From the IMG/VR virus record IMGVR_UViG_3300021068_000476, positions 1 through 28,772 of that record: DNA of 28,772 nt. One strand, written 5' to 3'. A program made the position numbers and the translations under genes. The notes below the pieces were generated by a model. That model was not told the origin of the DNA. It did not search any database and saw only the letters and a program-made list of their open reading frames with translations. Shown here in pieces: positions 1 through 6,247 of the stretch. This DNA comes from a virus. Numbering within the stretch: position 1 is the first letter of the stretch; each line of letters opens with the position of its first letter.

Positions 1-258
1 GTGATTGATGATTGGCAAGGACATAGATTTAGATTAATAGTAGAAACAGTCGGAGCATGTTGTTTCATAAGTGTCTATTTAATCATGGCGTGGTTTGGTG
101 ATAATACACCAATCTTTATTGTATTTTTATTCACGCTCTCGGGTGCTCTTTTACATTCTATAAATGCGTATCTACGAAAAAGTATTAACTTACTTTTGTT
201 AAATATTATAGTAGTATGCATAACACTTTTTGGAATAGCTAAGATGTTTTTAGCGTAG
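1..258 (+). CDS. small three-helix membrane protein, 5' end uncertain
   Basis: An 85-codon frame is open from the first base of the window and begins with GTG, so the true start may lie further upstream. Three hydrophobic stretches, about residues 11-32, 36-57 and 61-84, predict an integral membrane protein with very short loops and no recognisable catalytic motif. The layout loosely recalls small PnuC-like or SWEET-like membrane proteins, but this is only a resemblance of pattern. It ends 10 nt before the Coq4-like gene and is probably co-transcribed with the metabolic cassette. Function unknown. Confidence 0.5.
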   Translation: MIDDWQGHRFRLIVETVGACCFISVYLIMAWFGDNTPIFIVFLFTLSGALLHSINAYLRKSINLLLLNIIVVCITLFGIAKMFLA

Positions 259-268
259 GGGCAACGCT

Positions 269-745
269 ATGACTTTTCAGTATGAGTATGAAAAGTTTAT
301 TGACACTTATAGTACTGTAGAACAAAAAGATATATCGTTTATGATATGGTTGATAGAGAATCCAAAATCACCATTTCATCTACACGGTTCGGCATCTTTA
401 AAAGATCATGATGCTATACATGTATTACTAGAATGCGGTCAGTCAAACGATGAAGAAGCATTTGTTATTGGTTTTACAATGGGTACTGACGACAGAATTA
501 AACCATGGGAAGTAAAGATCTTTAAATTTATTTCACGCTTCTTATATCCAAAAAAGAATAGATTTACTAAAGCACAAATAGAAATATTTGATATTGGTTT
601 TAAATATGGCAGTTCAAGAAATACTAATCGTATAGGCGAAGTTGACTGGACGAAGTATAATTTAGATGTTCCACTAAAAGAAATCCAATTAGGATTTGGA
701 ATTATGGACAACGAATTAAGTTACCTTAAGCGAGATATCAAATGA
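269..745 (+). CDS. Coq4-like protein (ubiquinone biosynthesis family)
   Basis: This 158-residue protein carries a DHDAIH stretch at 46-51 and E63, which fits the Coq4 signature HDxxH-x11-E. A following 'GFTMG' segment resembles the hydrophobic helix after the motif in Coq4. Coq4 is needed for ubiquinone biosynthesis at the modification of ring carbon C1, and binds a divalent metal through this motif. The protein is shorter than typical Coq4 (about 220-260 residues), so it is a reduced version. Its stop overlaps the start of the proline dehydrogenase gene by 4 nt, which implies translational coupling. Proline dehydrogenase passes electrons to quinone, so the pairing makes metabolic sense. Assignment rests on the motif and context only. 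Confidence 0.6.
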   Translation: MTFQYEYEKFIDTYSTVEQKDISFMIWLIENPKSPFHLHGSASLKDHDAIHVLLECGQSNDEEAFVIGFTMGTDDRIKPWEVKIFKFISRFLYPKKNRFTKAQIEIFDIGFKYGSSRNTNRIGEVDWTKYNLDVPLKEIQLGFGIMDNELSYLKRDIK

Positions 746-1587
746 AACTATTATATCCGTTAGCTAAAAGATTTATAGCAGGACATAATGTAGAGTCTAT
801 GTTAAGTAATATTAGACAATACGATCTTGTTACGATTAATTATGTAGGCGAAAGTGCTACTGCACCTTGTATAGCTCAAGCTAACTTACAAAAATACTTG
901 TATCTAATTTACAAGTTAAAGTCAGTATTGTTTAGAGAATACGAAATATCAATTAAATTAAGCCAATTTGGTAATGCACCATACTTATGGAAAGAGCCTG
1001 TAGAAACAATAATTGATGCAATAAAAGATACTCCAAAAATTAAAATTAAATTTGATATGGAAAAGGAATCAACTATTGACGATACATTAAAGTTTTCCCG
1101 TTGTTTTAATGATATAGGTATTGTATTACAAGCTAATATGCAACGTTCGGGTACTGATATGGAAAAGGCTATGGAGAGTTATACTAGAGTTAGACTTTGT
1201 AAAGGAGCATACAAAGGTGATATCAGAAACATGAAGGATATCAGAAAAAATTATCTAAATATAGTAGAAGATATTTTCAAAAGCGGATATTTTTATCATA
1301 AAGATTATAAGCAAGAACTTGTATCTTTAGGGACACACGATGAGTATCTTATTGAAAATATAAAGAAGTTGTCCCAACAATACGGTGGCAAACAAAAGTT
1401 CTATTTCGAAATGCTTTTTGGCATTAGAAGGGACTTAGCAAAAAGATTAATCGGCGAAGGATACTCAGTAAGAACTTATATACCATATGGTGCAGATTGG
1501 ATACCTTATGTAATACGTAGATTATCGGAGTTTAAGAATCTTAAATTTGTTGGTGTAAATATTATAAAAGAACTTTTTTCAAGGTAA
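742..1587 (+). CDS. proline dehydrogenase (PRODH family)
   Basis: This 281-residue protein has the conserved landmarks of monofunctional PRODH in order: EISIKLSQFG at 68-77, LQANMQRSG near 129-137, RLCKGAY at 151-157, GTHD at 197-200, YFEMLFGIRR at 221-230, and VRTYIPYG...W.PY..RRL at 243-261. In known enzymes the RR pair binds the proline carboxylate. PRODH is an FAD-dependent beta/alpha-barrel enzyme that oxidises proline to pyrroline-5-carboxylate and reduces membrane ubiquinone. The length fits the roughly 300-residue bacterial enzyme; no P5C dehydrogenase domain is fused. It overlaps the Coq4-like gene by 4 nt and is followed 7 nt later by a second amino-acid dehydrogenase. Substrate specificity in the phage enzyme is not proven. 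Confidence 0.8.
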   Translation: MKLLYPLAKRFIAGHNVESMLSNIRQYDLVTINYVGESATAPCIAQANLQKYLYLIYKLKSVLFREYEISIKLSQFGNAPYLWKEPVETIIDAIKDTPKIKIKFDMEKESTIDDTLKFSRCFNDIGIVLQANMQRSGTDMEKAMESYTRVRLCKGAYKGDIRNMKDIRKNYLNIVEDIFKSGYFYHKDYKQELVSLGTHDEYLIENIKKLSQQYGGKQKFYFEMLFGIRRDLAKRLIGEGYSVRTYIPYGADWIPYVIRRLSEFKNLKFVGVNIIKELFSR

Positions 1588-1594
1588 GTACAAC

Positions 1595-2680
1595 ATGACT
1601 AAAATTATTATATTTGGTGGCGGATCTATAGGTAATGCAGTATATCATCTTTTAAAAGATCGTACAGCATACAGCATTACAGTAGCTGACATACGTGGTT
1701 CTGTTACGGGTATCCCGTCAGAAGATTATGCACAAATAGATACTAGGCATCCTGGTACTAACAGTTGGACAATTGATAAATTAATAAAGGATAAAACATT
1801 AGTTATTAATGCATTACCATATACTGAAAATATGATTATATATAATGCATGTTTAAAAGCAAACATTCCATACTTTGATTTCTCAGAAGATTCAGAACTT
1901 AATGACTTTATCCATAATATTGATTTAGAAAAGCCATTACCATTTACGATGCCACATTGTGGATTAGCACCAGGTATGAGTACAGTTATTGCAAATGACT
2001 TAGCACACGATTATACAAAGGTAGATGAAGTTAAAATAAGAGTAGGAGCATTATCACAGAATGCTACTAACAAATTAAAGTATCACCTTTCTTGGAGTGC
2101 AGACGGATTAATAAATGAATACTGTGGTAATTGTAAAGTTATACGTGATGGGCAGTTAAATGAAGTGCCAACACTTACAGATTACGAAACATTGTTAATA
2201 GATGGTACAGAATACGAAGCATTTAATACAAGTGGTGGATTAGGATCATTTGTAGATACTGTTATTAACGATCCACGTTATTCAGAAGCAAATGTAAATT
2301 ATAAAACTATTAGGCGGGTAGGACATCATGATTATATAGATTTTTTAATGAATGATTTAAAAATACCTAAGAAAGATTTAATTAATATTATTAAACATGG
2401 AGTGTCTAGTACAAAACAAGATTGTGTTATTATCTTTATTACAGTTAGTGGTATAGTTAATAGCAATCATACAGAACGCATATATAAGAAAATATTCTAT
2501 CCTGAAAAGTTAAATGGTAGATTGTTTACAGCTATCGAGTTAACAACAGCGTCAGGACTACTTACAATGGTTGAACTATTTTTACAGAATAAACTTAGTG
2601 ACTATGGTTACCATAAACAAGAGGAAGTTAAACTTTCAGAAGCAGTTAGTACAAAGTTTGGAAGTTTATATACGATGTAA
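1595..2680 (+). CDS. saccharopine dehydrogenase-like / L-lysine dehydrogenase-type enzyme
   Basis: This 361-residue protein begins with a Rossmann NAD(P)-binding segment, IIIFGGGSIGNAVYHLL at 4-20. It continues with PHCGLAPGMST at 120-130, SADGLINEY at 168-176 and YEAFNTSGGLGS at 207-218. These are hallmarks of the saccharopine dehydrogenase / lysine 6-dehydrogenase / carboxynorspermidine dehydrogenase superfamily. The length fits the single-domain lysine dehydrogenase type. If it acts on lysine, the product 2-aminoadipate semialdehyde cyclises to piperideine-6-carboxylate, a one-carbon homologue of the neighbouring PRODH product. The exact substrate cannot be read from sequence. It is the last large gene of the cassette; its stop overlaps the next small gene by 1 nt. 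Confidence 0.75.
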   Translation: MTKIIIFGGGSIGNAVYHLLKDRTAYSITVADIRGSVTGIPSEDYAQIDTRHPGTNSWTIDKLIKDKTLVINALPYTENMIIYNACLKANIPYFDFSEDSELNDFIHNIDLEKPLPFTMPHCGLAPGMSTVIANDLAHDYTKVDEVKIRVGALSQNATNKLKYHLSWSADGLINEYCGNCKVIRDGQLNEVPTLTDYETLLIDGTEYEAFNTSGGLGSFVDTVINDPRYSEANVNYKTIRRVGHHDYIDFLMNDLKIPKKDLINIIKHGVSSTKQDCVIIFITVSGIVNSNHTERIYKKIFYPEKLNGRLFTAIELTTASGLLTMVELFLQNKLSDYGYHKQEEVKLSEAVSTKFGSLYTM

Positions 2681-5084: not shown

Positions 5085-5277
5085 ACATTCTGCTAGATAT
5101 ATAATGAGACAACAAAAGAAGTTAGATAAAAAACTTCGTCGTAAACCTAAAAACATTAATGCTGACGGTGATACTACTATGATGCCTTTACATCAGACAA
5201 TCACATTAGATCATCTTACTAAACCAAAAGTGGCTCCGGGGGAAGGATTCGAACCTTCACGCTCTCCCAAGCAGTAG
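5077..5277 (+). CDS. small basic protein, 3' end antisense to a tRNA
   Basis: ATG 5077 overlaps the preceding stop; an in-frame GTG at 5074 is less likely. The first 40 residues are very basic (many K and R), suggesting nucleic-acid binding. The last 15 or so codons run antisense through the tRNA gene, so the C-terminus is simply the tRNA read backwards. Either the protein tolerates this tail or the original end was lost when the tRNA was placed here. Function unknown. Confidence 0.5.
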   Translation: MAKHSARYIMRQQKKLDKKLRRKPKNINADGDTTMMPLHQTITLDHLTKPKVAPGEGFEPSRSPKQ

Positions 5278-5317
5278 ATAAACAGTCTACCATGTCTACC
5301 AATTCCATCACCCCGGA
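5231..5317 (-). tRNA. type II (long variable arm) tRNA with anticodon GUU
   Basis: Read on the minus strand, the 87 bases fold as a full cloverleaf. The acceptor stem TCCGGGG pairs perfectly with CCCCGGA, followed by discriminator G and an encoded CCA. The D arm is ATG/CAT with a GG pair in the loop. The anticodon stem GTAGA/TCTAC encloses loop CTGTTTA, and the T arm is GAAGG/CCTTC around TTCGAAT. The variable arm is about 15 nt with a GCT/AGC stem, as in Leu, Ser and some Tyr tRNAs. The D arm (TGGAATTGGTAGACA) is strongly Leu-like, yet the anticodon is GUU (Asn codons), position 37 is U rather than a purine, and the discriminator is G. It lies 6 nt after the synthetase-like gene and is probably processed from the same transcript. 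Confidence 0.85.
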
Positions 5318-5323
5318 ACAAAC

Positions 5324-6247
5324 TTATTGCTCTATACCATGCATGTTTGAAAAACTACGTTTAAAGTTTTTGCTTCCTACACGATATGTTGTTGCTCTAC
5401 CTCTTTTAATACTTGGAGGAGTAATCTTCTTATATTCCTCAACAGCACGTATCATTCTAGTCATTCCAATTCCCCCTCCTACTCTAGGTTGAAAATCGTA
5501 ACTTAAGAATTCATTTAGTTCTGCTTCTACTCGTTCCTTACCAAACTGTCCGTATAGCAAGTCAGCATACTGTCCGTCACTAATAGTGTGGAACATGTGC
5601 TTCATTTCTTCCGGATCGCTACTACGTTCAGCTGAGCCTATTGTTTCCTGTCCAGCTATAATAACATCGATCTTAGCCGCAGTTCCGTCACCGTTTTGTT
5701 TCATGTTCCAGAAAGGACTAGTATAGTTTGGAAAGTTCTTAATCATACACACACGATCTTTATACTTGTCGTACATTGATTCTTCATCTTTGTGTGTTAA
5801 TTCTTTAGTATCAAAATCCTTAGCCCATTCCAAGTAGTCTTTAACTACAGGGTTTGAACCAAAGCCCATGTGTTCTGTAAGCTCTTTATTCATAATTTCA
5901 AGGTCTGCAACAGTTCCCGGAAATTCAAATTCAAACATTGGAAATATTAAATCATGGCGGCCTGGAACCGGGTTAGGTTCTTGTCTATAGGATGTTGAGA
6001 CACAAAAAAAGCCCTTCGATGAAGGGCGTGTAAGCAGTTCGTATTCTAGCCACATCTGGCCTGTTTGCGGTAGCGGCCAAACATTGCCGGCATAGTTGTA
6101 TGTACTTACTGTAGTTGGATCTTCACATGCGGCAAGTATGCTTAATCTATTTTGTGTATGGACTTCGTGAAAGCCTCGGTCCAAAAAAAACGACCTTAAA
6201 AGGCCGACGGTACTTGTATATTGTTCTGGATTTATTAACTGGGTCAT
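5324..6247 (-). CDS. class II aminoacyl-tRNA synthetase-like core (Asp/Asn type)
   Basis: The 307-residue protein is a class II synthetase catalytic core. A motif 1-like helix lies near residues 13-30. Motif 2 is SYRQEPNPVPGRHDL (86-100; R88 and E90 typical for ATP binding), with FEFEF after it. KIDVIIAGQETIGSAER at 192-208 matches the Asp/Asn signature region, and motif 3 is GGGIGMTRM at 257-265 with R264. There is no N-terminal OB-fold anticodon-binding domain, unlike AspRS, AsnRS or LysRS. It could be a dedicated synthetase for the tRNA 6 nt downstream, or an asparagine synthetase of the AsnA or archaeal AsnRS-related type, which also lack that domain. The start overlaps the upstream 91-codon gene by 4 nt (ATGA). 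Confidence 0.75.
   Translation of the reverse strand: MTQLINPEQYTSTVGLLRSFFLDRGFHEVHTQNRLSILAACEDPTTVSTYNYAGNVWPLPQTGQMWLEYELLTRPSSKGFFCVSTSYRQEPNPVPGRHDLIFPMFEFEFPGTVADLEIMNKELTEHMGFGSNPVVKDYLEWAKDFDTKELTHKDEESMYDKYKDRVCMIKNFPNYTSPFWNMKQNGDGTAAKIDVIIAGQETIGSAERSSDPEEMKHMFHTISDGQYADLLYGQFGKERVEAELNEFLSYDFQPRVGGGIGMTRMIRAVEEYKKITPPSIKRGRATTYRVGSKNFKRSFSNMHGIEQ
6004..6027 (-). terminator. intrinsic-terminator hairpin inside the synthetase-like gene
   Basis: On the minus strand GCCCTTC-ATC-GAAGGGC forms a perfect 7-bp GC-rich stem with a 3-nt loop, directly followed by seven T. This is a canonical Rho-independent terminator, yet it lies near codons 74-82 of an open reading frame in the same direction. 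Whether it acts will depend on ribosome occupancy. Confidence 0.6.
6183..6206 (-). terminator. second intrinsic-terminator-like hairpin inside the synthetase-like gene
   Basis: On the minus strand CGGCC-TTTTAA-GGTCG gives a 5-bp stem with one G-U pair, possibly extended by A-T pairs, followed by eight T. It lies around codons 14-22 of the synthetase-like frame. It is weaker than the hairpin at 6004-6027 but has the longer U tract. Confidence 0.45.

Follow-up and report, generated by a model that had tools for sequence, protein, structure and literature searches.

The left end of the window, by which is meant the whole 28.8 kb virus record analysed here (28,772 nucleotides), carries three tightly packed genes that read rightward, preceded by the end of a fourth:

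1..258, forward strand, small membrane-type protein, truncated by the edge of the window
269-745, forward strand, Coq4-like protein of 158 aa
742-1587, forward strand, proline dehydrogenase of 281 aa, of the monofunctional Thermus/Deinococcus type
1595-2680, forward strand, lysine 6-dehydrogenase-type enzyme of 361 aa

The first two members of this trio overlap by 4 bp (ATGA) and a gap of 7 bp separates the second from the third, which bears out a preliminary description of the locus as three overlapping or closely spaced genes on one strand. The small membrane-type gene, whose product is 92 aa long in the related contig L001, directly precedes the Coq4-like gene throughout G1, G2 and G3 (65-94% identity), and is the start of the conserved run as far as the window reaches. 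Family searches with its product returned no convincing match.

The order of the trio is conserved in three further virus contigs, one of them (L001) near-identical to the window (95-97% protein identity) and the other two (L002 and L003) diverged from it (65-73%). As this order is common to all three, differing only by a tyrosine phenol-lyase-like gene that separates the first two members of the trio in L002, the arrangement cannot be attributed to chance, and the synteny in related phages that had been proposed as a check is indeed observed. Between the diverged copies, dN/dS as estimated with a simple counting method, some pairs being near saturation at synonymous sites, is approximately 0.1 for the Coq4-like gene, 0.14-0.18 for the proline dehydrogenase and 0.25-0.27 for the lysine dehydrogenase; the window and L001 are so nearly identical that there are too few changes in the Coq4-like gene for a useful value. 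These low ratios reflect purifying selection, which implies that the genes of the trio are being maintained. A scan for promoters found fewer promoter-like sites than were present in shuffled sequences.

Rightward of the trio, the window encodes a DnaB-like helicase and a second phage DNA helicase, and the closest relatives of the carrier phage's helicase are found in large Pseudomonas and Agrobacterium phages. The 126 kb contig of L002 also encodes a portal protein, a large terminase, a tail sheath protein and UvsX, which identifies the carrier as a contractile-tailed phage. The presence of these genes on a contig bearing the cassette, together with the recurrence of the cassette in independent assemblies, rules out contamination by cellular DNA.

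The identity of the proline dehydrogenase, as given in the preliminary description, is well supported. The protein matches PF01619 (Pro_dh) at 70.1 bits (cut-off 27; E = 3.1e-19), and solved single-function proline dehydrogenases head its list of PDB matches (4h6q at 5e-27, followed by 2ekg and 5m42). Residues K72, D105, R151, Y157, Y246, R259 and R260, which we take to be the equivalents of the Thermus catalytic residues K98, D133, R184, Y190, Y275, R288 and R289, are all retained and are invariant across the four viral copies. The enzyme shares with the monofunctional enzymes of Thermus and Deinococcus (2ekg, 4h6q) the Pro_dh domain and, of the catalytic residues, the lysine, the aspartate, the tyrosines and the two paired arginines. 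The differences are that the enzyme is phage-borne and that it falls below the cut-off of the NCBIfam equivalog for the Thermus enzyme (NF045947; 131.6 bits, E = 3.2e-38, cut-off 500). Judged by its sequence it is of the Thermus type, membership of the equivalog not being claimed. There is no fused P5C dehydrogenase domain, and the enzyme presumably oxidises proline with a quinone as acceptor. Proline dehydrogenase genes are also found, in the absence of a lysine dehydrogenase, in the small viral fragments L032-L034. No convincing example was found in the records of isolate phages, where annotated matches look bacterial. Two apparent precedents, Microcystis phage MaAM05 (GenBank MW495066.1) and Staphylococcus phage UPMK_1 (MG543995.1), were not counted, the bacterial-looking stretches in question containing flagellar, murJ, bioD or riboflavin genes.

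The third gene had been described as encoding a saccharopine or lysine dehydrogenase-type enzyme, and this too is upheld: both saccharopine dehydrogenase domains pass their thresholds (PF16653 at 53.7 bits, cut-off 31; PF03435 at 44.2 bits, cut-off 25.1), and the best PDB match by sequence is 3abi (1.4e-16), the L-lysine dehydrogenase of Pyrococcus. An AlphaFold model built on 44 related sequences (mean pLDDT 93) has this same structure as its top match (Z = 39.5, rmsd 2.2, 334 residues aligned), followed by carboxyspermidine dehydrogenase (Z = 33.9), with the saccharopine enzymes scoring lower. The best fit, from sequence and predicted structure together, is a lysine dehydrogenase, which would remove the epsilon-amino group of lysine in an NAD-dependent reaction. 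With carboxyspermidine dehydrogenase and saccharopine reductase, which belong to the same fold superfamily, as the next structural neighbours, the protein might instead act on another amine or imine through carboxyspermidine or saccharopine chemistry, placing the cassette in polyamine metabolism. We consider this very unlikely, as 3abi is clearly ahead by both Z score and E-value with a matching length, viral and cellular homologues of the enzyme are paired with a piperideine-6-carboxylate (P6C) dehydrogenase, and a family search of the annotated neighbours recognised no polyamine gene. As to the loss of catalytic residues that had been raised as an argument against activity, those checked are retained.

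The assignment of the first gene to Coq4 stands only in part. Its product contains the exact HDxxHx11E metal motif of Coq4 (residues H47-E63, window positions 407-457), and the motif is present in all four cassette copies, in a diverged copy (L246) and in gp026 of cyanophage S-TIM5. However, no copy reaches the cut-off of PF05019 (22.9 bits), the best scoring 12.1 bits. For two diverged copies this family is the sole Pfam match (E = 0.12 and 0.19, below the cut-off), the alignment in both covering a single region of the profile (positions 125-219 of 221). The N-terminal half of the domain is therefore absent, and the protein, at 158 aa, is short relative to the 220-290 aa or so of Coq4, with which it has in common the metal motif and a co-linear C-terminal half. 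A profile of the four sequences, compared with fifteen bacterial Coq4 sequences, scored 24.5 and ranked second among the 97 phage families tested, the match of the top-ranking family spanning just 13 columns. Once the diverged L246 copy was added, the hhalign score rose to 32.6 over 89 columns; 200 column shuffles averaged 13.6 and never exceeded 24.6. We read the protein as a real, if distant, homologue of the C-terminal half of Coq4.

Whether this homology extends to function is another matter, since a half-length protein scoring below the family cut-off does not by itself demonstrate ubiquinone synthesis, and a role in that pathway is a guess. The gene may simply encode a small metal-binding phage protein that has the motif in common with Coq4 and no link to quinones. 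Such an explanation would account for the failure to reach the Pfam threshold, the reduced length and the lack of a relevant match when the family's sequence profile was compared with solved structures; it also accommodates the homologue in S-TIM5, where the cassette is absent from the 2.6 kb examined. Against it, the profile match is co-linear over about 90 columns, extends beyond the motif and exceeds every shuffle, and Coq4 is the only family that the two diverged copies match. It is a possibility of real weight, though we lean somewhat against it. An AlphaFold prediction for the protein from four sequences was useless (pLDDT 37.6). The S-TIM5 protein (L122, 1944-2270) is annotated as hypothetical and is a distant relative of the family.

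The preliminary description treated the trio as a unit. The unit is real and conserved, but it is larger than was thought: a 507-residue aldehyde dehydrogenase, missed in that description, is encoded in each of the three relatives (at 2574-4097 in L001), some 1.4 kb upstream from the Coq4-like gene, the corresponding position for the window lying past its left edge. This enzyme has only 36% identity to the ALDH7 type, to which P6C dehydrogenases belong; it scores 375 bits against the cut-off of 730 for NF050084 (L-piperideine-6-carboxylate dehydrogenase), and other aldehyde families outscore P6C dehydrogenase. In human ALDH7A1, aminoadipate is contacted by Glu121, Phe168, Trp175, Arg301, Thr303, Gly461, Ala462 and Phe468 (PMC11362210). 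The cassette enzyme retains the equivalents of all of these (E121, F168, W175, R301, T303, G461, A462 and F468), as do its eight homologues in a sister clade of the lysine dehydrogenase. Eight bacterial genomes supplied 30 other aldehyde dehydrogenases for comparison; only four of these have the set, all of them P6C dehydrogenases, with the caveat that the Thermus enzyme 6fku shows identical contact residues in the alignment. All the tested aldehyde dehydrogenases of viruses with a lysine dehydrogenase have the set, irrespective of family. That two families of aldehyde dehydrogenase should present one substrate pocket alongside a lysine dehydrogenase is the strongest argument for phage-encoded lysine oxidation, and it is because an aminoadipate-semialdehyde-type active site occurs upstream in every relative that the two related dehydrogenases can be read as a plausible pathway.

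The distribution of these genes was surveyed among viral contigs and cellular loci. Relatives of the lysine dehydrogenase were found in 66 viral contigs, in 18 of which the adjoining gene encodes an ALDH7-type aldehyde dehydrogenase; the two of these enzymes that were scored, in L006 and L008, pass the NF050084 cut-off of 730 (739.7 and 744.8 respectively). The cellular homologues show the same pairing, with a P6C dehydrogenase adjacent or nearby at 38 of 80 loci. In the sister clade (L174-L195; 46-52% identity), the lysine dehydrogenase gene sits within a lengthy conserved series of small phage genes, which precedes a gene resembling, by eye, that of a T4-type primase. Eight records of this clade encode an aldehyde dehydrogenase of the cassette type (56-67% identity to that of the window's clade) away from the lysine dehydrogenase, in three cases beside a gene for a ferredoxin or a 2-oxoacid oxidoreductase beta subunit. 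Taken together, the 66 contigs, the 18 adjacent pairs and the eight sister-clade records imply that phages carry, as a recurrent module, the conversion of lysine to aminoadipate. A long-branched tree of the lysine dehydrogenases did not resolve between one and several origins of the viral copies. An aspartyl/asparaginyl hydroxylase-like protein (L018, 1095-1733; L176, 231-881) also seems, by eye, to recur across both clades.

Among the viral contigs surveyed, lysine dehydrogenase, proline dehydrogenase and Coq4-like genes are joined only in the window's clade. In the sister clade, a diverged Coq4-like gene is present in one record (G116), and a proline dehydrogenase gene in another (G129), distant from its lysine dehydrogenase. 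The proline dehydrogenase and Coq4-like genes are a clade-specific addition to the lysine module. As none of the 80 cellular lysine dehydrogenase loci has a proline dehydrogenase within approximately 5 kb, and the two lie side by side in only one viral clade, the lysine and proline steps need not belong to a single programme.

Further metabolic genes accompany the cassette on the contig of L002. Upstream of it (L018, 8778-12337), genes for an alpha and two beta-type subunits of a 2-oxoacid:ferredoxin oxidoreductase and for a YfhL-type ferredoxin adjoin the aldehyde dehydrogenase gene. The beta subunit is also found in L033, L172 and L236; the alpha subunit and the tyrosine phenol-lyase-like gene (L018, 3965-5326; 643 bits, below the cut-off of 720.7) were each found on this contig alone. 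These extra genes fit a catabolic island in which amino acids would be broken down to pyruvate and acetyl-CoA, with NADH and reduced ferredoxin formed as well. In the closest relative of the window, the position just 5' of the aldehyde dehydrogenase gene, occupied by the ferredoxin gene in other contigs, instead encodes a protein with a cyclic-nucleotide-binding-type domain (L011, 5533-5928).

The cassette is probably an auxiliary-metabolism operon through which a marine tailed phage oxidises lysine and proline. We infer its substrates, the direction of the reactions, the use of quinone as electron acceptor and the benefit to the phage as follows. The enzyme encoded at 1595-2680 would carry out the NAD-linked oxidation of the epsilon-amino group of lysine, releasing ammonium and forming piperideine-6-carboxylate/aminoadipate semialdehyde, which the upstream aldehyde dehydrogenase would convert to alpha-aminoadipate with the production of a second NADH. 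The enzyme encoded at 742-1587 would convert proline to pyrroline-5-carboxylate, passing electrons via FAD to the quinone pool, which the Coq4-like protein may help to support; pyrroline-5-carboxylate could then be oxidised to glutamate by the cassette aldehyde dehydrogenase or by a host enzyme. The phage would thereby gain NADH, quinol, ammonium and glutamate while infecting, and electrons may flow from the cassette to the respiration of the host, as first suggested. A broader proposal is that several lineages of marine tailed phages oxidise lysine fully to aminoadipate, and that the window's clade, in which a different family of aldehyde dehydrogenase with the same active site performs the second step, has added proline oxidation and a phage-made quinone helper, such that the infected cell is fed by the breakdown of amino acids rather than by the usual carbon routes of the host. 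This is advanced tentatively, the case for and against being nearly balanced.

The closest cellular parallel is found in Ruegeria pomeroyi, where the neighbouring genes SPO0234-SPO0235 encode a lysine dehydrogenase and an aminoadipate-semialdehyde dehydrogenase of verified function, and where high salt favours the lysine dehydrogenase route, with aminoadipate as its osmolyte product (PMC4334477). The phage cassette shares with this operon the pairing of a lysine 6-dehydrogenase family enzyme with an aminoadipate-semialdehyde dehydrogenase, but it is phage-borne and its enzymes have 35-41% identity to the cellular ones found; moreover, the window's clade uses the other aldehyde dehydrogenase family (sharing the active-site residues of P6C dehydrogenase at 36% identity) and adds the proline dehydrogenase and Coq4-like genes. 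As both steps of the Ruegeria route are present on phage contigs, the cassette could serve to adjust solute balance rather than to supply fuel, turning lysine into the osmolyte aminoadipate and removing proline, itself also an osmolyte. This appears improbable, because removing proline while building up aminoadipate would have opposite effects, and the 2-oxoacid:ferredoxin oxidoreductase and tyrosine phenol-lyase genes, present together on one contig, favour catabolism.

Known phage metabolic genes mostly concern photosynthesis, sugars and nucleotides. The cassette resembles such auxiliary genes in comprising host-type metabolic enzymes, under purifying selection, within a phage genome, and differs from them in being directed at the oxidation of amino acids to NADH and quinol. 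The open-licence literature yielded nothing relevant on proline dehydrogenase, lysine dehydrogenase, Coq4 or the trio in phages; as evidence of novelty this is weak. A recurrent module for oxidising lysine, its first enzyme present in 66 viral contigs and a proline step added in a single clade, would imply that phages redirect amino acids to yield reducing power and nitrogen, and the lysine and proline routes together could provide energy and nitrogen for the production of new phage. Oxidation of lysine as proposed predicts that, during infection, aminoadipate would measurably accumulate or be released.

Further along the window, a tRNA-Asn gene adjoins a gene for a class II aminoacyl-tRNA-synthetase-like protein of the Asp/Asn/Lys type (5231-6247). 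The family match of this protein is limited to the catalytic core, and it has 63% identity to the 'tRNA ligase' of Prochlorococcus phages P-SSM2/P-SSM7.
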